Notes under the pieces: generated by a model
What the model was told of the DNA's origin: nothing
Seen by the model: the letters and a program-made list of their open reading frames with translations, nothing else
The model's database searches: none
Shown: positions 14,513-64,000 of the stretch, piece after piece
Numbering within the stretch: the stretch's first letter is position 1
Layout: every line of letters begins with the position of its first letter
DNA from: Pelagophyceae sp. CCMP2097
Lineage: Eukaryota > Sar > Pelagophyceae
DNA length: 64,000 bases
Reading direction: 5' to 3'
NCBI GenBank assembly: GCA_026770575.1
Contig: MU657287.1
Location: 75,579-139,578 of the forward strand
Position numbers and translations under genes: made by a program

Positions 14513-14752
14513 CTCAGAGTGCGCGCCAGAGCCGCGCCGTGCCGTCGGCGCTCGCCGTCACGACGCGCGCGCCGTCGGGCGAGAACGCGCAGCTCCAGAC
14601 ATGGCTGGTGTGCCCCTCGAGCGTCGTCAACAGCGCGCATGTCTCGGCGTCCCAGAGCCGCGCCATATTGTCGCCGCTCGCCGTGAGAAGGCGCTTGCCG
14701 TCAAGCGAGAACGCACAGCTCCGGACACATCCGATAGAAACCTTAAGGTTCT
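14513..14752 (-). pseudogene. WD40-repeat gene fragment C
   Basis: The minus strand reads 'CVRSCAFSLDGKRLLTASG', 'MARLWDAETCALLTTLEGH', then 'HVWSCAFSPDGARVVTAS', 'GTARLWRAL' and a stop at about 14513. That is just under two WD repeats, very close in wording to the repeats of 26899-28116. The 5' side is lost at a boundary with dispersed repeat R (14755). A decayed, truncated member of the same family. Confidence 0.7.
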
Positions 14753-14938: not shown

Positions 14939-15793
14939 NNNNNNNNNNNNNNNNNNNNNNNNNNNNNNNNNNNNNNNNNNNNNNNNNNNNNNNNNNNNNN
15001 NNNNNNNNNNNNNNNNNNNNNNNNNNNNNNNNNNNNNNNNNNNNNNNNNNNNNNNNNNNNNNNNNNNNNNNNNNNNNNNNNNNNNNNNNNNNNNNNNNNN
15101 NNNNNNNNNNNNNNNNNNNNNNNNNNNNNNNNNNNNNNNNNNNNNNNNNNNNNNNNNNNNNNNNNNNNNNNNNNNNNNNNNNNNNNNNNNNNNNNNNNNN
15201 NNNNNNNNNNNNNNNNNNNNNNNNNNNNNNNNNNNNNNNNNNNNNNNNNNNNNNNNNNNNNNNNNNNNNNNNNNNNNNNNNNNNNNNNNNNNNNNNNNNN
15301 NNNNNNNNNNNNNNNNNNNNNNNNNNNNNNNNNNNNNNNNNNNNNNNNNNNNNNNNNNNNNNNNNNNNNNNNNNNNNNNNNNNNNNNNNNNNNNNNNNNN
15401 NNNNNNNNNNNNNNNNNNNNNNNNNNNNNNNNNNNNNNNNNNNNNNNNNNNNNNNNNNNNNNNNNNNNNNNNNNNNNNNNNNNNNNNNNNNNNNNNNNNN
15501 NNNNNNNNNNNNNNNNNNNNNNNNNNNNNNNNNNNNNNNNNNNNNNNNNNNNNNNNNNNNNNNNNNNNNNNNNNNNNNNNNNNNNNNNNNNNNNNNNNNN
15601 NNNNNNNNNNNNNNNNNNNNNNNNNNNNNNNNNNNNNNNNNNNNNNNNNNNNNNNNNNNNNNNNNNNNNNNNNNNNNNNNNNNNNNNNNNNNNNNNNNNN
15701 NNNNNNNNNNNNNNNNNNNNNNNNNNNNNNNNNNNNNNNNNNNNNNNNNNNNNNNNNNNNNNNNNNNNNNNNNNNNNNNNNNNNNNNNNNNNN
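14939..15793. other. Assembly gap (855 N)
   Basis: Run of N; content unknown. The frames open across it are artefacts. Confidence 1.
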
Positions 15794-26898: not shown

Positions 26899-28116
26899 AT
26901 TTCCAGGTTGGGGTCCGAAACTCAGGCGACGGGGGCTCTTGGGAGCAGCCGGCGGCCCAGCAGCCGGCTTGCACCGCCGAGCCCGACGTAAGAGCGCGAC
27001 GTGCCAGACCCGCGCCGTCTCGTCTTGGCTCGACGTCACGACGCGCTCGCCGTCGGGCGAGAACGCGCAGCTCCAGACGTTGCTGGCGTGTCCCTCGAGG
27101 GTCGCCTGCAGCGTGCCTGTCTCGGCGTCCCGGAGCTTCGCCGTGCCGTCGCTGCTCGACGTCGCGACGCGCGTGCCGTCGAGCGAGAACGTACAGCTGA
27201 AGACGACGCGCGTGCCGTCGAGCGAGAACGTACAGCTGAAGACAACGTTGGTGTGCCCCTCGAGCGTCGTCGGCAGCGCGCCCGTCTCGACGTCCCAGAG
27301 CCGCGCCGTCCTGTCGTCGCTCGCCGTCGCGATGCGCTTGCCGATGGGCGAGAACGCGCAGCTGTAGACGCAGTCGGTGTGCCCCTCGAGCTTCAGCAGC
27401 AGCCACCCCGTCTCGGCGTCCCAGAGCCGCGCCGTCCCGTCCCAGCTCGCCGTCGCGATGCGCTTGCCGTCGGGCGAAAACGCGCAGCTCGCGACGCGGC
27501 CGTCGTGCCCCTGCAGCGTCGTCAGCAGCGCACCCGTCTCGGCGTCCCAGAGACGCGCCGTCCTGTCGGCGCTCGCCGTAACGACGTGCTTGTTGTCGGG
27601 CGAGAACGCGCAGCTCAAGATGCCGCCGGTGTGCCCCTCGAGCGTCGTCAGCAGCGCGCTCGTCTCCGCGTCCCAGAGCCGCACCGTCCCGTCGTAGCTC
27701 GCCGTGACGAGGCGCTTGCCGTCCGGCGAGAAGGCGCAGCTCGTGACAATGCTGGTGTGCCCCTCGAGCGTCAACTGCAGCGCGCCCGTCTCGGCGTCCC
27801 ACAGCCGCGCCGTCTCATCATCGCTCGCTGTCGCGATGCGTTTGCCGTCAGGCGAGAACGCGCAGCTCCTGACGTAACCGGTGTGCCCCTTGAGGATCGC
27901 GGTGCCATTCAAAATGCGGTCCTGCTAGACGAGCTTGTGCAGGGCCAGCGTCACGGCGCGCGCGTCGCGGGCGACGTGCTTCGTGACGAAGAGGCCGTTC
28001 GAGGAAGCCGCCAGCCGGAGGATGGGCGTGAGCAGGTCGCGCTGCTCAAACACGCGGAGCGCGAGCTTGGCGGCGCCGGCGCGCGACCGGGCGCGCCGCC
28101 CGGTGGCGACCGGCAT
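26899..28116 (-). pseudogene. WD40-repeat protein gene B, interrupted by one stop
   Basis: From ATG 28116 the minus strand encodes about 63 residues ('ALRVFEQRDLLTPILRLAAS', 'HVARDARAVTLALHKLV') and then a TAG at about 27925; copy A has AGG there. After the stop the same frame runs on for over 330 codons with about seven WD repeats of the form 'VRSCAFSPDGKRIATASDD', 'ETARLWDAETGALQLTLEGH', ending at 26899. The repeats are unusually alike, typical of prokaryote-like WD arrays under recent amplification. A 39-bp unit is duplicated in frame (27162-27240, 'VVFSCTFSLDGTR' twice). No ATG lies between the stop and the first repeat. Either a pseudogene or a gene needing read-through; I favour pseudogene. 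Confidence 0.7.
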
Positions 28117-31998: not shown

Positions 31999-34900
31999 AT
32001 GGGCCTTCTCGGGACGTACATCGTGACGCCCCTCCTGCAGCGCGCCGCCCCCGTCGTCGGCGAAGTGGCGCAGGCGATTACGCGTTCCGGAAACCACTTA
32101 ATGGGGCACAATGTGGTAAGCACTGTGTGCCAGTGGGGTTAACAGTGGTTTAACACTTGATCGCACCCTTTCTCCCCCGCGCACCCTCGACAAAATCAGC
32201 CCGGCTGCGAGACGCCGGCGAGCGTGCGCCTCGACGCCATCGAGCCCATCACGCCGGCACTGCCTACGGGTATCTTTTTGCTAAGGGGCGTTTGTGATTC
32301 CTGCTTCGAACGTCGATCTATTGAGATGTTTTTCAGGTGTCTTCGTCGCCCCCACGGCCACCGTCGCCGGCAAGGTCAACCTCGGCGAGGTGCGCGGGGG
32401 GCTGGGCGGGCTGATGCGCCTCTGGGCCAAGTGCCTGGGCATCTCCAAAGGCGTCTCAAAAAGCCCCCTCACCCACTTCGACGCCGCCGCCCCTAGGACT
32501 CTTCGGTATGGTACTCGGCCGTCGTCGTCGGCGCGCCAAACGGCGACGGAGTCACGCGAGTTGTTTTTTTGTCTCTCGCGTGCGTCTTTACGCTTCTCCG
32601 CCACACGCCTCGCTGTAGCATTGGCCCTTCGGCGTCAATCGGCGACTGCGCTTCGGTGAAGAGCGGCATTTTGCCGACGAATATCGGCGCGGGCGTGGCC
32701 GTGGGGGCGCGCGCTACCGTTGAAGAAGGCTGTGTGCTGGGTAAACGCCCGCGTCCCCGCGATGGAAATAAAATCCCATGGGTCCCATCCCAGACAGCAG
32801 GGGGGATCCCGCGTCTGGGGTCCATCCAATGTGGGGGGTGCCAGAATTTTGGCCGACCCGTATACCCGCGGGTCTGCCCGTAGCCCGAACCCGAACCCGA
32901 CCCTTCGAAGACGGGTTTGGTCGCTCGATAAACCCGCGACCCTTTGGGTTTGGCACAGATTGAGCAACCAGACCCGAAGACGCCATTGCACGGACTCTGC
33001 GCGGTCGCTTGCAAGGCCTCTTTTGAGATGCCCTTGAAAAGCCCTCCGGACGGGGGCCCCTGCAGGGCCTCTTCGAATTGGATCGCGCAGCCACACGTCT
33101 TTCGAGCGGCGGAATCGGGCCCTCCGAAAGGCGCCCGCGGCGCGGATCGGGCCTCGGGAGCCACAGTCCACACGACGTTTCGAAGGGCCGTCTCGAGTGG
33201 TCGTCTCGAAGGGCCGTTTAAAGAGACCGCTTCGAGGGGCCCTCTCGGGGAGAGTCTCGAGTGGTCGTCTCGAAGGACCGTTTTAAGGGACCGTTTCGAG
33301 GGGCCGGTGAGAGTGGCTTTCTTGAGGGGCTGACTCGAGGGGCCCTCATAAAGCGCCGTTTCGTGGCGTCGTCTCAAGGGGCCGGTATGAGGGGCCTTCT
33401 CGAAGGGCCGTCCAAAGGCGCCATTTCGAAGGGCCGCATCAAGGGGCCCTCACGAGGGGCCGTCCAGAGGCGCCGTTTTGAGGGGCCATTTCGAGGGGTC
33501 ATCTCGAGGGGCCGTCTCGAGTGGCCGTCTCAAGTGGCCGTCAAAAGGAGCCGTTTCGAGGGGCCCTCTCGAATGGCCGGCGAGAGGAAACGTCTCGAGG
33601 GATCGTCTCGTAGGGCCGTCTGACAGAGAGGTCGTTTCGAGGAGCCCTTCGAGAGGCCGGTGAGCAAGTCCTTTTAGAGGGGCCGTCTCGAGGGGCGTTC
33701 AAGGGACCTTGAAAGAGGCCTTGCAAGCAACCGCACAGAGGCCGGGCAAATGACTTCTAAAGTAGCTCTCCGGACGGACTCTCGCAAGGCCTCTTTGGCA
33801 GCTACTTGCAAGGCCTCTGCGTGGTCACTTGCAAGGCCTCTTTCAAGGGCCCTTGAAAAGCTCTCTTGGCGGGCCCCTGAGAGGCCACTTTGGCGGCCAC
33901 TTGCCCGGCCTTTGCGCGGTCACATGCGAGGCCTCTTGGACGGCCCCTTGAATGCTCTCCGGGCGGGCCCCTGTAAGGCCTCTTTGGCAGCCACTTGCAA
34001 AGCCTTTGCACAGTCGCTTGCAAAGGCCTCTTTTAAGGGCCCGCCCGAGCGACTGTCAGAGCGACTGTCAGAGCGACTGTCCGAGCGACTGTCCGAGCAA
34101 CTGTCCAGGGGCAGTCGCAGAAGGGGCGCAGTCGAGGGGCGTAGCCGAGTGACCGTCCAAGGGACCATCGAAAAAACACCGTCAAAGCGACCATCACAGA
34201 GGGCCCATCGAGGGACCCTCAAAGAAACTGTCCAAAGGGACCGTCCAAGGGACCGCCCAAGCGACCGTCCGAGGGACCATCCGAGACGGAAGCAGGAACG
34301 GTTTCGGGCTTGCCCGAAACTCGCGGGTCGGGTTTGCCGGGTTATAGCGTTTTGGCCGACCTGTCTACGAGTGGGTTTGGCCTTGGCCCGAACCCGAACC
34401 CGTTCCTTCGAAGACGAGTTTGGCCGATTGACAAACCCGCGACCCGAGGGTTCGGTACAAATTGAAGACCCAAAAACACCGCCGTCGCCGGGTGTTCGAC
34501 ATTGCGGGCCCCTGCAAGGCCTCTTTAGCGGCCACTTAGCCCGGCCTCTGCACGGTCACTGACAAGGCCTCTTGGGCGGCCTCTTTCAAGGGCCCTTGAA
34601 GAGCCCTCCGGACGGGCCCCTCCAAGGACTCTTTTGTGGCCACTTGCACGGCGTCTGCGTGGTCGCTTGCAAGGGCTCTTTGAAGGGCCCTTGAAAGGTC
34701 CTCCGGACGGGCCCCTAGGCCTCTTGCAAGGCCACTTGCAAGGCCTCTGCGCGGTCACTTGCGAGGCCTTTCTCAAGACCCCTCTCAAGCCCCCACGCAG
34801 GGTTCCTTGCCAGAGACACGTGTTTGAGCCCTTACGGGGTCCTTTCACTGTTCCTCGCACGGGGTGCCATATGGTTTGATAGCGGTCCGAGAGACCGCCC

Positions 34901-37457
34901 GAGCGACCGTCCGAGCGACTGCCCAGGGGACGTCGCAGAGGGGCCGGAGTCGAGTGGCCGGCAGCCGAGTGACCGTCCAAGGGACCGTCGAGGGGCCGCC
35001 CTCAAAGCGACCGTCACAGAGGGCCCGTCGAGGGACCGTCAAAGGAACTGTTCAAAGGAATCGTCCAAGGGACCGCCCAAGCGACCGTCCGAGAGACCGT
35101 CCGAGCCTTTCAAGGGGCCGTCTCAAGGCACCGTTTCGAATGGCCGTCTCGAGGGGTCGTCTCGAGGGGTCGTCCGTCCCTAAGGGTCATTTCGAGGCAC
35201 CGTCTCGAGGGGTCGTCTCAAGACGCTGTTTCGAGTGGCCGTCTCAAGGCGCCGTTTCGAATGGCCGTCGAAAGGGGCCGTCTCGAGGGGCCGTCTTGAG
35301 AAGCCGGAGATAGGAGCAGCGACAGGTTCGGGTTTGCCGAGTTTGCGCGTTTGGCCGACCCGTCGACCCGCGGGTCTGGCCGACGGCCGCGACCCGAGGG
35401 TTCGGCACAAATTGGAAACCCGACCCGACCCGAATACACCGGTTAAGCTCGTGCCAGAAAGGCGAACATTGTACGATGGGTTGATTTACGGTAGGCGAAC
35501 ACTGCACTATCGGCTGCAACGCCTTTGTCGGTCGCGGCTCTACAATTGGCCCCGAGGCGAAGATCGCAGACGGTTCGTCGTTACTCGCCGAATCCATCGT
35601 CGGCGCGGGCGAGTTATGGGTCGGAACACCGGCGATGCTCGTGCGCACGTGAGCAGACCAGCGCCGAGTCTAAAGATCCGTCTGAAGGGCCGTCTCGAGG
35701 GCCGTCTCGAGGGCCGTCTTCAGGACCGTTTCAACGTCGTTTTGAGGCCGCCTCGACGCCGTCTCGAAGCCGTTTCGAGGACCGATTCGAAGTCGTCTCA
35801 AAGCCGTCTCGAGGACCCTCGAGAGGCCGTCTTGAGGACCGTCGAACGGATCGCTTTAAGGGCCGTTCTCAAGGTCGTTTGGAGGGCGTCTTAAGATCGA
35901 GAGGGCCGTCGAGAGGACCGTCGAGAGACCGTCTCGAGGGCGGTCTGAGGACCGTCTTCAAGCTGCCTGAAGAAATGTCTGCAGGGCCGTCTCAAGGTCG
36001 TTTTGAGGCCATCTCGAATTTGAGAGGGCCGTCAAGAGGACCGTCTCGAAACCGCTTCGAGGGCCGTCTCGAAGTCGTCTCAAGGACCGTCTCAAGGTCG
36101 TTTGGAGTCGTTTGGAAGCTGCCGAGAGGGCCGTTTCGAAGGCTGTTTCGAGGATCGTCTTCAGACCATTTCATCGGCCATCTCGAGGGCCGTCCCGAGG
36201 ATCGTCTCGAGGATCGTCTTCAGACCGTTTGAAGGGCCGTCTCGAGGACGGTCTTGAGGTCGGTTTGAGACCGACTCGAGGGCTTTTCAGGAGGGCCGTC
36301 TCGAGGCCGTCTCGAGGCCGTCTCGAGGACCGTGTCGATGTCGTCTTCAAGGCGTCTTGAGACAGTCGACAGGCCGCCTCGAGTGCAGTGACGAACACCG
36401 TCGAGAGGATCGTCTTCAGGACCGTCTGAAGGTCATTTGAGGCCGTCTCGACGTCGAGAGTGTCGTCAAGAGGAACGTCGAGAGGACCGTCTCGATGCCG
36501 TCTCGAAGGCCGTCTCGAGGGCGGTCTGAGGACCGTCTTAAAGCTGTCTGAAGAACCGTCTGTAGGGCCGTCTCGAGGGCTGTTACGAGGAACGTCTTCA
36601 GGACCATCTCGAGGTCGTTTTGAGGCCGCCTCGGGGGCTGTCAAGAGGGCCGTCAAGAGGTCCGTCTCGAGACCGTCTTAAGGGCCATCTCGAGGCCCGT
36701 CTTGAGGTCGTTTTGAGACCGTCTCGAGGATCGTCTTCAGGTCGTTTGGAAGTGTCGTCTCGAGGATGGTCTCGAGATCGATTTGAGACCGTCTCAAGGG
36801 CCGTCTCGTGGACCGTCTCGAGGGCCATCTCGAGATCGTTTTGAGACCGTTTTAGGGCCGTCGAGAGGGCCGTCTCCAGAACCGTCTCGAGGTCGTTTTG
36901 AGGCCGTTTCGAGAGTCCCGTCAAGAAGGCCGTCAAGAGACTGTCTAGAAGACCGTCGAGAGGGCCGTCTCGAGGGTCTTCTAGCGAGCTGTCTTGAGGA
37001 CCGTCACAAATCTGTCTGAAGAGCCGTCTGAAGGGCCGTCTGGAGGGCCGTCACGAGGAACGTCTCCAGGACCGTCTCAAGGTCGTTTGAGGCCGTCTCG
37101 ACGTCGAGAGTACGCATCGCAGAGGCGTGGTGGATAGGATGACTGCTGTGTGACGCATGAGGGCTTTTATTTATATACCGGCAACTGTGTAGGTTGACTG
37201 CGCAAGAGCTGGCCCGGGCCCTCGAGGAGCTCGACACCGTTACAGACCTCGCCCAACAGCACCTCATCGAGACGGAAAAGCCTTTTGACGAGCTCATGAT
37301 CGACGACGACGAATGGGCCGATGCTCAATCCAGGCCACCATGGTACATCCAGCGCGGGCCGCGCCACGGGGTTTACGTCGACCCGCACTCCGTGCTGGGC
37401 CAGGGCGTCCCGGGCAGGATCCTGAACTCGCGAATCAAGAGGGAGCACCACGAGTGA
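31999..37457 (+). CDS. Gamma-carbonic-anhydrase-like protein (complex I type), with two giant introns
   Basis: Seven exons (31999-32115, 32200-32269, 32337-32389, 32497-32555, 32619-32740, 35495-35648, 37193-37457) join in phase to 279 residues. The N-terminus 'VGEVAQAITRSGNHLMGHN' matches the helix before the beta-helix in mitochondrial gamma-CAs. Left-handed hexapeptide repeats follow: 'VFVAPTATVAGKVNLGED', 'SSVWYSAVVVGAPNGDGVTI', 'GPSASIGDCASV', 'GARATVEEGCVLGEHCTIG', 'STIGPEAKIADGSSL'. Then come the family turn 'GELWVGTPAMLVRTLTAQEL', a helix and a long C-terminal extension rich in Trp, Arg and Glu. The three zinc histidines expected after 'GD', in 'H.A' and 'H.C' positions appear replaced, so it is probably a non-catalytic gamma-CAL subunit of complex I. 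Exon 4 ends at a GC donor (GCGAGT). Introns 5 (2754 bp) and 6 (1544 bp) are filled with repeat arrays; the other four are 63-107 bp. Confidence 0.85.
32741..35494. repeat. Intron 5 of gamma-CA-like gene: composite M/A/U/B/C repeat arrays
   Basis: Order seen: an M module near 32860-32990; C-type array (words around CCGTCTCGAGGGG) 33170-33725; A-type array (CTTGCAAGGCCTCT) 33725-34030; B-type array (GAGCGACTGTCC / GGGACCGTCCAAG) 34030-34290; M module 34290-34480; A array 34500-34790; U segment 34790-34885 (contains CCTTACGGGGTCC and TTTGATAGCGGTCCGA); B array 34885-35110; C array 35110-35320; M module 35320-35440. M contains GGGTTTGCCGGGTT, TTTGGCCGACCCGTC, CGAAGACGGGTTT and AACCCGCGACCCGAGGGTT. 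No ORF here is credible although all frames stay open for long stretches. Confidence 0.8.
35649..37192. repeat. Intron 6 of gamma-CA-like gene: CTCGAG-centred array
   Basis: From about 35670 to 37110 nearly every 12-20 bp repeats a GRCCGTCTCGAGG-like unit with point changes (CGTCTTCAGG, CGTTTTGAGG). CTCGAG is itself a palindrome, so both strands carry the word. Only C-type units are present; there is no M or U module. The intron ends with an AT-rich TTTATTTATATACCGGCAAC-type tract before the acceptor. Confidence 0.8.
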
Positions 37458-58203: not shown

Positions 58204-58379
58204 TACTTTGTGGACCACTCTGGGGATACGAAAATCACTTTGTGGACCACTTTGGGAACCACTTGGTCCAAGAGGACTTTGTGAACCACTTTGGGGACTC
58301 GGATTCGAGAGGCCCTGTAAAGTCTGCATGGACGCGGGCGAAAGGGTCGCCCTCCTCCGTTGGAACGCGCTCGCGCAGT

Positions 58380-59700
58380 GACGGTGCATTCGGGTCGGGT
58401 TGCTCAAGTTGTGCCAAACCCTTGAGATGGCCCCTTTCGACAGCCATTCGAAACGCCTTGAGACGGCTCCTCGAGAGGCTCGGACGGTCTCTCGGACGGT
58501 CGCTTGGGCGGTCCCTTGGACGATTCCTTCTGACAGTTCCTTTGAGGGTCCCTCGACAGGCCCTCTGTCACTTTGACGGCGGTTTCTCCCTTGAAAGGTC
58601 ACACGGCCGCCGACCCCTCGACTGCAGTCCCTCTGCGACGTCCCCTGGATGGGCCCTCGGACAGTCGCTCGGACGGTTCCTCGGACGGTCACTTGGATGG
58701 TCGTTTGGATGGTCCCTCGGACGATCCCTTGGACGGTCCTTTGGACAGTTCCTTTGGACAGTTTCATTGGAGGGTCCCTTGGAGGGTCCCTCGACGGTCC
58801 CTCGACGGTCCCTCTGCGACGGTCCCGTGAACGGTCCGTGGAACGGTCGTTTGGACGGCCGCAGAGACTGCGGCCCCTCTGCGTCGTCCCGCGGGCGGAC
58901 CCTCGGACAGACCCTGCGACGGTCCCTTGGGCGGCGGGCCTTTGGACACTTCCTTTGGACTGTTCCTTGGACGGTCCCTTGGGCGGTTCCTCGGACGGTC
59001 CCTCTGCGATGATTCCGTGGACGGTCCCTTTGACGGTCCCTTCGACGTTCCCTTCGACCGGTCCCTTGGACGGTCCCTCGACGGTTCCTCGTCGGTCTCT
59101 TTGCGGCAGTCCCGTGCTCGCTTGGATGGTCGCTTGGGCGGTCCCATTGGACGGTCCCTTTTGACAATTCCTTGGACAGTCCCTCGACGGGCTCTCTGTG
59201 ACCGTCGCTTTGACGGCGGCCTCTCGACGTTCCCTTGGACGGTCGCTCGACTGCCGGCTCCTCGATGCGGCCTCTCGGCGATTTCTCCTTGCCCAAGGTT
59301 GGGGGGACTCGGAAAGTCGCTTGGGCGGGCCCTCTATCAAATCCTATGGCGTTCCGTGCGAGGAACGGCGAAGGGATCCCGAAGGGGTCGAACACGCGTC
59401 TCTGACAAGGAACCCTAAGTGGGGGCTCGATAGGGCACTTCAAAGAGGCCTTGCAAGCGACCATGCATAGGCCTTGACCGCCAGAGAGGCCTTGGAGGGG
59501 CCCGTCCGGAGAGCTTTTCAATTTGTGCCGCGCCCTCGGGTTGCGTGTTTGTCGAGCGACGAAACCCGTCTTCTCGGGTCGGATTCGGGTTTGGACCACG
59601 GCCAAACCCACGGGTAAACGGGGCGGCCAAAACGCGCAAACTCGGCAAACCCGACCTGCGGGTTTCGGGCAAATCCGAACCCGCCCCTACTCCTGACCAC
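58380..59700. repeat. Composite M/C/B/U/A/M repeat, minus orientation
   Basis: Read from 59700 down to 58380 this repeats the intron-5 order: M (59530-59700), A (59440-59525), U (59336-59425, with TATGGCGTTCCGTGCGAGGA and ACAAGGAACCCTA), a long B array (58470-59330, GGACGGTCCCTTGGACGGTC type), C units near 58430-58470 and a partial M at 58380-58430. It begins about 180 bp after the epimerase stop codon; that interval holds ACTTTGTGGACCACTTTGGG repeats (58207-58300). Confidence 0.75.
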
Positions 59701-61350
59701 TTTGTGACGACTCGGATACAAGAGGTTCCTTTGTAAAGTCTACATGTACGCGGGCAAAAGGGTCGTACAAGGCCCCTCCGTCGGCACGCACTTGCGCAGT
59801 GATGGTGTATCGGGTCGTTTTTTTAATTTATGCGAAACCCTCGGGCTTGTCGAACGACCAAACCCGTCTTCCAGGCCGGGTTTCGGGTTCCGGTTACGGC
59901 CAGACCCGCGGGTCGCGGGTTTGCTGGGTCGACACACGCAAAAAGGGTCGGGTTTGGATTCGGGTCGAACCCGTACTTTAAAGCCCCTTTCCGGAGAGCC
60001 AGCGTACCCGCGACGTCGACACCGCTTTCGACCGCGCGGCCCGAAGCCCAATTCTATGGTACGCACGAATAGAGAAAACCCGAGTTGATAAACCCGGTGC
60101 GATCCCGTGCGGCGCCGGCGCATGCCAGAGCAAGGCTGTACCATCGTGCGCCGCTACGCTGCGGCAGAGTACCGTGTGTGGACGTTCAACGGGTCTTTGG
60201 ACAGTGCGGCCGTGGCATGTCGACGCGGCGAGCTGCGACGGGCGAGTGCGTCGAATGACGCGCCGAGGAATCAAGTAGGCGGCGTTATGATACGCTCCCG
60301 GGCTCTGATCCAGGGTCAAGAAGCTCTGATCCACGAACACAGCGTGTTGCGAAGACGTTTTGACGACAGGGCTTTGGACAGAGCTTTCGAGTCCTTGGCG
60401 GACACGGTGGGCCGAGAGACTGAACGTGCAACGACAGACGGAGGATTCGACCTAGCTACATGCTGGCACGCTGATCCTGCGGAGCCTGAGCCGCTGCGTT
60501 GCACATTCCGGAATATTTCATTATGGCAATTGATGCAATAATGTGGCACATGGGATGCCGTATGGCATCCATAGGCATCTCACATGAGCGTCGGCGTTCC
60601 AGCGGGCGCGCCGCCGCCTGCGGGCTGCCCTACGCCCACGCTGATCCAAAACCACAGCGCAGGTGAATGGGAATTATGAGAGGTTGGACAGGGCTTTGTA
60701 ATCACGCCCTCCTGCGTCGAGGAGCGAGAGTCAAACGCCACGTGTGCTGCTCGGGGCGCGCGCTCGACGGCGGTCGCCGCAAGCTCAATAAGTATGGTTG
60801 AGGGAATGGTGTACACGCCCTGGGCCAAGTATGTTGATTGTCCATCTCAAGGGGGGTTGTTGGTTTGCACAGCAGTAGAGTTGGTTCATATACCGTGAGA
60901 CTCGCACTTGGAGATGCTCGCATCGACGGGGCCAGCTCCCAGTGGGGTCTACCGGAATCATATAGCTGAAACCCGCGGGTTTGTCGGGTACCCGCGGGTT
61001 TGCTACCCGGCGCGCCCGCAGGGTTTCGGGTTTGTGTCATGGCTAGACCCGCGGGTCGACGGGACGGCCAAAACGCGCAAACCCGGCAAACCCGACCCAC
61101 GGGTTACGGACAAACCCGAACCCGTCGCTGCTCCTGTCGTCGCCGGGCCGTCTCCGGGCCCGTCCCATCTTTGGGACCGTTTCTGGGACAGTCTCTGGGA
61201 CGTCTCTGGACCCGTAGACGGACCGTCGAGGGCCCGGAGAGACCGTCTTCGGGATCGTCTCTGAACCGTCGACGGTTGGAGAGGCCGTCTTGGGAACCTT
61301 TGCAACCGTCTCCGGGGCCGTATCTGGGGTCGTCTCCAGAACCGTCGCCT
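59701..61350. repeat. Intergenic with two further M modules and a GGGACCGTCTCC array
   Basis: M-type sequence recurs at about 59820-60000 (CGACCAAACCCGTCTTCC, GGCCAGACCCGCGGGTCG) and 60965-61130 (GGTTTGTCGGGT, AAACCCGGCAAACCCGACCC). The latter is followed by a GGGACCGTCTCTGGGACGTC-type array (61140-61330). Between them, 60100-60560 has a 140-codon plus-strand frame ('LIQGQEALIHEHSVLRRRFD') with some protein character but no family. 60545-60590 has GGGATGCCGTATGGCATCC palindromic words. Confidence 0.5.
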
Positions 61351-61602: not shown

Positions 61603-63669
61603 ATGGAGTCGTTGGGCAACCTGGCCGCGGCGTTTGACGTCGTCCGGCGCACGAGCAGCGCGCACGGCTAAACGATTGACGTCCTCGAGCGCGCGTCCCA
61701 CGCCGGAATAGTGCAGCGCCGGCGTCTTATCAATCCTTGGACCTCGTGCTCTCGACGCGAGGTGTCGTCGGGCGACTTGGCCGCGAAGTTCGACCTCGTC
61801 CAGCGCACAAGCAATTCACACGTCTCGGCCATCGACGCCTTCGAGCGCGCCTTCCACGCCGAGAAGGTGCGCGCAACGTCTTGCATCAGTCGCAAGGACC
61901 GAGGAGCTCCCAACGCGAGGCGCCCGTCTTAGGCGCTGCTCGTGACGGACCGGCAGGCGCTCCAGGACGACCGCGCGGCCATCATGCAACGAGTCGACGA
62001 CGAACGAGCCGGACTCGAGGAGAAGCGCGCGGCCGTCGAGCGCGACCGCGCCGAGGTGGACAGCGAAAAGGCGCGCATGCGCGCAGCAACGCCGCCGCCC
62101 GACGGCGTCGTCAAGCTCAACGTCGGCGGCATGCGTTTCGAGACTTCTAGGGCCGTTTTAACAAAGGTCGAAGACTCGATGCTCGGCCGCATGTTCGGGC
62201 GCTGCGACGCGATGCTGCAGGCTGACCCTTTTGATAGGCCAATCTTCATCGACCGCGACGGCGAGCGGTTCCGCACGATCCTCGATTTTCTCCGCGACCT
62301 CAACGCTCCGCAAACGCAGAAGGCCATTCGCGCTTTAGCCGATGCCGCCCAGGAAGCCATGGTCAAGGAGTTGGATTACTTTGGCCTCGAGGCCGCCGTC
62401 TTCGGCACCCCGCCCTGGATCGACGGTACGGCGCTTCGGCCGGGACCGGATATGAGCGATGGGCGTTCTGCATTCGGAGCCGTGTCTGCTGGAGGGCGTG
62501 TCGTCGTGTTTGGCGGGTATTCAAGCGGGTCTCGTTTAAACACGACGGAAGTGCTCGACACGCGGACGATGGCCTTTACGACCGAGCCGAACCTGCTCGC
62601 GGGGCGCTACTGCTGCGCGGCCGTGCAGCTCGACTCGGACCGCGTGCTCGTCGTGGGCGACTTTGACGGGCATCAATATTTGAACTCGACGGAGATCCTC
62701 CACCTCTCGACGCTCACGGTCACGCCAGGGCCAAACATGCAAACGGTACGATCCGGCTGCGCCGCCGTCGCACTCGAACTCGAGACTCGCAGGATCCTCG
62801 TCGTCAGCGGTTATAATGGATCGTATTTGTCGAGCACGGAAATCCTCAGCCTCGACACGATGGCCTTTTCGCAGAGGCCCACCATGATCGCTCCACGCGG
62901 TGGCTGCGCGACCGTCGCGCTCGACGAGCACCGCATCATTGTCGCCGGTGGCTTTTCAGGTTCAGAATATTTGACGACGACTGAGGTACTTGACGTCCGG
63001 ACCATGGCGTTCGCGCCCGGCCCGTCGATGGGTTCGAAACGCTGGGGATGCACGGCCGTGCCTGTCGATGCTCAGCACGTCCTCATCATCGGCGGGCGGG
63101 ACTCGTCATACAGGACATTGGTCACGACCGAGGTTCTCGACGTGGCGATGATGGAGTTCGCGCCCGGGCCGACCATGCGAACCGCGCGTCATTCGTGCGC
63201 AGCCGCTCGACCCGACGGTGCGGGCGAAGAGCCACGCGCCATCGTGATTGGGGGACGTCATGGGGCAACCAACTTGTCGACGACGGAGGTGCTTGCCGTA
63301 GAGGATCAAGGGGGACGCGCGAGCGCCGGCGGCTCGGAGTCCACCATAGTAACTCACGAGTCGAGCCTAAGCCCTCCGGATGGGAGCGCTCGTCGGTGCA
63401 AACCGAGCGAAAGAGGTCGGAAGCGCAGACAAAGCAGGAGCAGTGACGGGTTCGGGTTTGCCCGAAACCCGCGGGACTGGTTTGCCGGGTTTGCGCGTTT
63501 TGGCCGACCCGTCGACCCGCGGATTTGGCCGTCACGGTGGCTCGAACCCGAAACCGACCTCTCGAAGACGGGTTTCGTCGCTCGACAAACCCGCGACCCG
63601 AGGGTTCAGTACAAATTAAAAAGCTGTCCAGACGGACCCCTGCAAGGCCTCTTTGGCGGTCACTTATAA
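61603..63669 (+). CDS. KCTD-type BTB domain plus kelch-repeat protein
   Basis: The main exon starts at acceptor 61933 (CTTAG|GCGCTG) and runs to TAA at 63669. An upstream exon ends at 61866 ('IDAFERAFHAEK', donor GTGCGC). The protein opens with a coiled coil ('DRQALQDDRAAIMQRVDD', 'ERAGLEEKRAAVERDRAEV'), then a potassium-channel T1/KCTD-like BTB domain ('VVKLNVGGMRFETSRAVLTK', 'FIDRDGERFRTILDFLRDL'). About six kelch-type blades follow ('GGRVVVFGGYSSGSRLNTTE', 'VLDTRTMAF'). KCTD proteins are cullin-3 adaptors; kelch blades would bind the substrate. Two oddities: the 5' part from ATG 61603 is duplicated (61615-61735 and 61765-61866), with one in-frame TAA at 61669 in the first copy; and the last ~85 residues are encoded by an M repeat module, with the stop inside an A-type array. 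Confidence 0.8.
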
Positions 63670-64000
63670 GGCCTCTACACGGTCACTTGCAAGGCCTCTT
63701 TGAAGGGTCCTATCAAGCCCCCACGCAGGGTTCCTTACCAGAGATGCGTGTTCGGGCCCTTACGGGGTCCCTTCACCGTTACTCCCACGGGATGCCAAAT
63801 GGTTTTATAGCGGTGCGAAGGCTAGTCCGAGCGACCATCTGAGGGCCCGCCCGGGTGACGTCAAAGAGAGGCCGCAGTCGAGTGATCGTCCAAGGGGCCG
63901 TCGACTCGGAGGGACCGCCGTCAAAGCGACGGTCACAGAGGGCTCGTCGAGGGACCGTCCAAGGAACTCTCCAAAGGAACCGCCCAAGCGACCATCCGAG
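63430..64000. repeat. Composite M/A/U/B repeat, plus orientation, cut by window end
   Basis: M 63430-63640, A 63640-63715, U 63715-63815 (CCTTACGGGGTCCCTTCACC, GGTTTTATAGCGGTGCGAAG), B from 63820 onward. Same order and orientation as 34290-35110. It overlaps the 3' coding end of the kelch gene. Confidence 0.75.

Follow-up and report, generated by a model that had tools for sequence, protein, structure and literature searches.

A composite repeat of direct modules and minisatellite arrays in Pelagophyceae sp. CCMP2097, probably a non-autonomous DNA transposon of macrotransposon type

At the end of one contig of the Arctic marine pelagophyte Pelagophyceae sp. CCMP2097, the same succession of parts recurs in both orientations: a module M, a short-period array A, a segment U that is present once per unit, two further arrays B and C, and again M. 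This raises the question of whether such a composite is mobilised as a unit and, if so, by what kind of process. We followed it in a window of 64 kb, the final 64 kb of the contig (C124:75579-139578), where the modules were mapped by tandem-repeat, self-comparison and profile searches, and in a genome sequence of 66,184,329 bases in 638 contigs. The published assembly is given as 85.8 Mb with 27% repeats (PMC9756366), against the 66.2 Mb searched here.

The order M-A-U-B-C-M is real in copies 1 and 2 of the window, which lie on opposite strands (Table 1). Three loci had been predicted, and the modules do follow the order at all of them, but copy 3 is visible only to the start of B since the contig end at 64000 cuts it, leaving C and the last M outside the visible sequence. 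In the same way, M was said to stand at both ends of the window copies; this is so on the left, whereas on the right copies 1 and 2 have only pieces of an M. Three Ms lie within 32836-35417, and the M at 32836-32965 belongs to a further unit whose parts stand in another order. No 8-base target duplication is visible by eye at either copy 1 or copy 2, and the seven ORFs inside or overlapping the window units gave no Pfam match at 0.01. Elsewhere in the window, tandem repeats of 126 and 165 bp at 26997-27899 and 14521-14751 resemble, at first sight, WD40 coding repeats; the copy at 14521, which lies near a gap of Ns (14939-15793), is diverged.

Table 1. Composite units, their modules and a related element in the 64-kb window (TIR, terminal inverted repeat)
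Feature	Position	Strand	Remarks
Copy 1, M-A-U-B-C-M	34287..35453	+	right end is TIR variant CCGGTTAAGCTCGTG, compared by eye with L080
Copy 1, left M	34291-34467	+	model columns 1-177, 176 bits
Copy 1, array A	about 34500-34770	+	GCAAGGCCTCTTTGGCGGTCACTT-type units
Copy 1, U	34781-34886	+	
Copy 1, array B	about 34887-35106	+	GACCGTCCAAGG-type, 12 bp
Copy 1, array C	about 35113-35300	+	GGGGCCGTCTCGA-type, 13 bp
Copy 1, right M	35325-35417	+	partial, internal deletion; columns 35-94 and 147-177
Extra unit, different order	32836..34290	+	fused upstream of copy 1; starts with a partial M (32836-32965) and a short stretch of A, followed by a C-like array (33176-33621), then A and B, which abut the left M of copy 1 as the closing M
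Copy 2	58370..59695	-	left TIR at 59695; M 59691-59515, short A, U 59434-59330, long B about 59246-58480, short C, then M tail alone, ending near 58370
Copy 3	63435..64000	+	TIR, M 63439-63622, A, U 63709-63814, start of B
Family N element	59791..61136	-	same left TIR, without arrays, N-type right end; limits read by eye, target duplication not seen

Across the genome, chance does not account for the arrangement. A 191-base stretch of M found at least 41 matches in the genome (40 of the 643 first-look candidates were scored) and U found at least 40 (40 of 217 candidates scored), of which the 39 besides the window's own query stretch are 84–93% identical. At 20 loci chosen by U, an M lies upstream of U on the same strand and within 600 bases in all but L017, and an M lies downstream on the same strand in 15 (not in L016, L019, L021, L025 and L028). 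Twenty units with U between two Ms, five from M-chosen and 15 from U-chosen loci with the window copies excluded, are 1,068–2,416 bases long (median 1,497); the array words are ordered A-U-B-C in 19 of them, the exception being L027, which has only two A words. Modules in random order or at random distances, the outcome on which the original prediction was to be given up, did not occur in the loci that were read.

When the borders of the units are aligned, the flanks prove unrelated, on the left side as far as CAGGAGCAGGGACGGGT and on the right side after ...ACCGTCCCTGCTCCTG. Homology among composites stops at these same ends, which are inverted repeats of each other, CAGGAGCAGGGACGG / CCGTCCCTGCTCCTG. 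The suggestion that M brackets the unit like a terminal repeat is supported and can be refined, in that the mobile ends are 15-base terminal inverted repeats (TIRs) forming the outer edges of two direct Ms. At no more than one mismatch, the left terminal motif has 160 matches in the genome (70 forward and 90 reverse), compared with none for the reversed control. A TIR variant, CAGGAGCTTAAACGG / CCGTTTAAGCTCCTG, was seen by eye in L080 and, on one side only, in L022 and copy 1.

We looked for target duplications by comparing the 8 bases beyond each end of the whole unit, with a one-base shift allowed in units and controls alike. With at most one mismatch, such duplications surround 7 of the 20 units as opposed to 1 of 380 cross-pairings (0.26%). 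They are perfect in L003, L005, L012, L015 and L026 and carry one mismatch in L023 and L029, the left TIR of L023 being poor (6 of 15 bases mismatched). Another set was chosen by TIR and not by U, and its 25 left-type ends at 20 loci comprise, by our own classification, 15 composites, eight ends of an array-free relative that we call family N, and two others. Among these 15 composites, a right end with at most four mismatches stands at the expected place in 11, and a duplication with at most one mismatch is found in one (L054), which by a rough estimate is fewer than expected from the identity of about 82% between copies; a scripted tally of the set gave 3 duplications in 24 as against 4 in 576 controls. 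The 8-base duplications around whole units indicate that composites have moved as a unit by transposition, though most copies bear no visible trace of it. The claim that the composite was mobilised as a unit is in this way upheld by a minority of copies that is far above the control, and the expectation of many copies with M at both ends and with duplications came true as to the many copies, most of which are without a readable duplication. The missing duplications have likely disappeared through module recombination, truncation and sequence decay. As regards empty sites, a search through 361,858 bases of locus sequence gave no match across a junction, and the left flank of L012 had no match other than itself in a search of limited reach.

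The majority of TIR-chosen composites without a readable duplication could also point to a large satellite or segmental duplication, spread by recombination without transposition. Units are joined in tandem in the window (32836-35453), in L007 and in L022, and TIR copies near Kelch genes share their flanks in two groups, both of which fit with such spreading. On the other hand, the flanks of composites are unrelated and homology ends at the same inverted termini, and the excess of 8-base duplications over the control contradicts this account for the copies carrying them. We consider it possible for some copies and, as an explanation of the composite, very unlikely.

The Kelch genes in question belong to a KCTD(BTB)-Kelch family that is very large in this genome, with at least 91 matches to protein P0010 (87 of 558 candidates scored), mostly 58–76% identical; the family is represented in the window at 61903-63141, where a KCTD-Kelch ORF covers 61942-63666. 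A protein search with this ORF had its best match and several more in Pelagophyceae sp. CCMP2097, and P0010, which is among these proteins, agrees with the genome at 100% over residues 5-483. On the strand of a Kelch gene, and about 290–560 bases downstream of it, TIRs start at C32:289625, C32:292687, C15:272567(-), C106:83899, C64:88382, C80:212218 and window position 63435; these starts include two groups of three that have common flanks and look co-duplicated, and the start in the window seems to stand apart. Of 63 exact TIRs, 3 are no more than 1.5 kb from any of 87 Kelch matches, where 0.34 were expected. We considered a preference for Kelch genes and rejected it because the cases fall into the two flank-sharing groups and largely go back to co-duplication.

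A short non-coding unit with a direct repeat at each end is also what a TRIM- or LTR-like retroelement would present, the Ms then being long terminal repeats copied by reverse transcription. Hallmarks of such elements are TG..CA ends, a duplication of 4–6 bp and repeats that are near-identical within a copy. The ends of the composite, however, are inverted and start with CAGG, and the duplications have 8 bases. Moreover, Ms from the same unit are on average 83.3% alike, compared with 81.8% for randomly paired Ms (20,000 permutations, p about 0.003), and they are mutual best matches in just 1 of 18 units. Within-unit Ms that are hardly more alike than random pairs are far from the LTR pattern, and we regard a retroelement as extremely improbable.

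From the inverted ends, the 8-base duplications and the conserved order, we conclude that the composite is probably a non-autonomous TIR (cut-and-paste) DNA transposon of macrotransposon type. Like a TIR transposon it has inverted termini at both borders and, in a minority of copies, a duplication of fixed length, 8 bp, that encloses the unit as a whole, and like a macrotransposon it has two related modules in direct orientation of which the outer ends are used. We suggest that two direct Ms of ~200–220 bases, partly palindromic and with inverted ends, would have come to flank A-U-B-C. A transposase could then act on the outer ends of the left and the right M and excise everything between them, and the excised unit would be inserted elsewhere with duplication of 8 target bases. 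In many copies the left M has an eroded inner TIR; array slippage, module recombination and co-duplication with host DNA would be later changes.

The M module itself bears on how this arrangement may have arisen. A complete M has 180–225 bases, mostly 200–220, with a TIR at both ends (33 examples), and is partly self-complementary (columns about 34–171). The inner TIR is missing in many left Ms and kept in L004, L006 and L070, among others; since some left Ms have an inner TIR of their own, M was probably once complete at both ends. We infer an origin of the composite from two separate M insertions and, for C, the capture of a pre-existing genomic minisatellite. Such a capture fits with the C-like arrays that exist outside elements, most clearly at window positions 35689-36973 and in L013, and probably in L017. 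The array in the window stands free just to the right of copy 1 and consists of C-like 12-bp GGCCGTCTCGAG units.

In macrotransposons each end module is mobile alone. None of the 33 complete Ms, at loci which were chosen by M, U or TIR and are mostly composites, has a duplication of its own at up to two mismatches, so that the presumed founder, an M moving by itself, did not come to light. In addition, 12 of the at least 41 M places were read for having no listed U nearby, and all 12 adjoin an array on at least one side (C on the left in five, A following in six, B on the left and A on the right in one). We thus rejected the solo M as a MITE. The same two results would be in line with one ordinary non-autonomous transposon, whose ends are alike owing to an internal duplication of M and not to two elements trapping the DNA between them. 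A complete inner TIR in some left Ms is not simply predicted from such a duplication, and the occurrence of C-like arrays outside elements also speaks against it; we see it as a possible, if somewhat doubtful, origin.

The original prediction had also raised structured RNA as a possibility. U is a foldback of about 106 bases with inverted ends, CTATCAA..TTTGATAG, and is predicted to form one long imperfect hairpin, as might be expected if U or M were the source of a structured RNA, conserved for its role in driving or marking the element. The fold of U has a z of -1.82, and 11 of 200 shuffles fold as well. Yet changes on both sides occur in only 2 of the 20 predicted pairs, and in several units U is reduced to roughly its first 40 bases. 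Conservation of U beyond M was another candidate that we dropped: at U-chosen loci U is 92.4% alike as opposed to 83.7% and 80.4% for M, and the difference is gone elsewhere, U being 80.1% alike (9 copies) and M 81.0% (21 copies) at loci not chosen by U, one of which, L043, is also on the U match list. For M, the idea of a structured RNA found no support, its fold as single-stranded DNA having a z of -1.38, and neither U nor M has a match in Rfam at E up to 1. An RNA in this role is in our opinion highly improbable.

The array-free family N has the left TIR of the composite and an M-like right end with a different interior, and is about 0.5–1.3 kb long in the few copies read. Its left end has at least 43 matching stretches in the genome (40 of 404 candidates scored) and its right end at least 47 (40 of 536). 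Among the eight N ends of the TIR-chosen set, 8-base duplications with at most one mismatch were found in L052 and L057, which are probably cases of one event as L052, L053 and L057 have their left flank in common; in L080, a duplication matches in 7 of 8 bases by eye. A stretch of ~140 bases starting with the M tail is found at window positions 58285-58422 and 59696-59841 (75.7% identical), that is, at the right borders of both copy 2 and the neighbouring N element, which suggests unequal exchange between element ends.

A transposon of the kind we propose would depend on a helper transposase, which may be of hAT type. Target duplications of 8 bp are common to hAT and other superfamilies, and hAT elements prefer the target nTnnnnAn; of the five perfect duplications, two have T as their second base and one has A as its seventh (by eye). 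Five transposase families were searched for in the genome, and the sole match was to hAT, with nine matches to its dimerisation domain (PF05699). At these nine loci, with flanks of up to 1.5 kb, there is neither a TIR at up to four mismatches nor a significant match to M or U. For IS1595/Merlin-type and MULE domains the genome had no match, with positive controls in prokaryote genomes; KDZ and TNP-like RNaseH domains gave none either, with controls that were silent too, so their absence is not shown. As hAT is present but, at these loci, without the ends of the composite, we describe the latter as working in the manner of a non-autonomous element of hAT type and refrain from classing it as hAT. 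Six loci (L032, L033, L034, L037, L038 and L039) represent a multi-copy hAT-related family that is about 89–98% identical among loci.

Several known systems resemble the composite in part. In bacterial composite transposons, two terminal modules bracket a segment and move with it as a unit, but the modules described here have no transposase gene, the host is a eukaryote and the cargo is apparently non-coding. Macrotransposition seems to be documented mainly for single loci of maize. In the Ac/Ds macrotransposons of maize (hAT), as in the composite, two linked TIR elements move the intervening DNA and the duplications are 8 bp; one source describes a macrotransposon bounded by a Ds and an Ac, moving up to 100 kb (PMC3260210), and the 2008 paper by Huang and Dooner that it cites reportedly has the direct orientation in its title. 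Unlike these, the composite is small and is itself a many-copy repeat family with a fixed interior of three arrays and U, and no helper transposase with its ends was found in the loci searched. A MITE of Porphyromonas gingivalis is reported to be a short TIR element with an internal minisatellite (PMC4596501); the composite differs from such minisatellite MITEs in having three arrays in fixed order between two direct, partly palindromic modules. Introner elements of pelagophytes (Aureococcus), the same algal class, have an 8-bp duplication in Aureococcus sp. (PMC9860276), and an introner size of about 210 bp is given (PMC9481584), to which a complete M comes close. The likeness seen is in the duplication and the length of M, and unlike introners the composite is 1.1–2.4 kb long with no splice sites evident by eye at its ends. 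We found no description of the element in the literature searched, which was mostly that outside subscription.

The arrays invite a further thought that starts from their sequence. Their GACCGTCC-like units might be amplified from the CCGTCC core of the terminal repeat, in which case the arrays would be more than passive cargo, the extra binding sites would win transposase and minisatellites would be seeded genome-wide. We think this unlikely; if true, the composite would be a non-autonomous element that carries tens of putative transposase binding sites and seeds minisatellites while spreading. In this free-living alga the composite looks like an established family of macrotransposon-type repeats, some copies of which still let the order and the 8-base duplications be read. 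As such it would be a natural record of how paired, linked modules turn the DNA between them mobile, and of the dispersal of minisatellites, and it would add a DNA transposon with 8-bp duplications to an algal class in which similar elements became introns.
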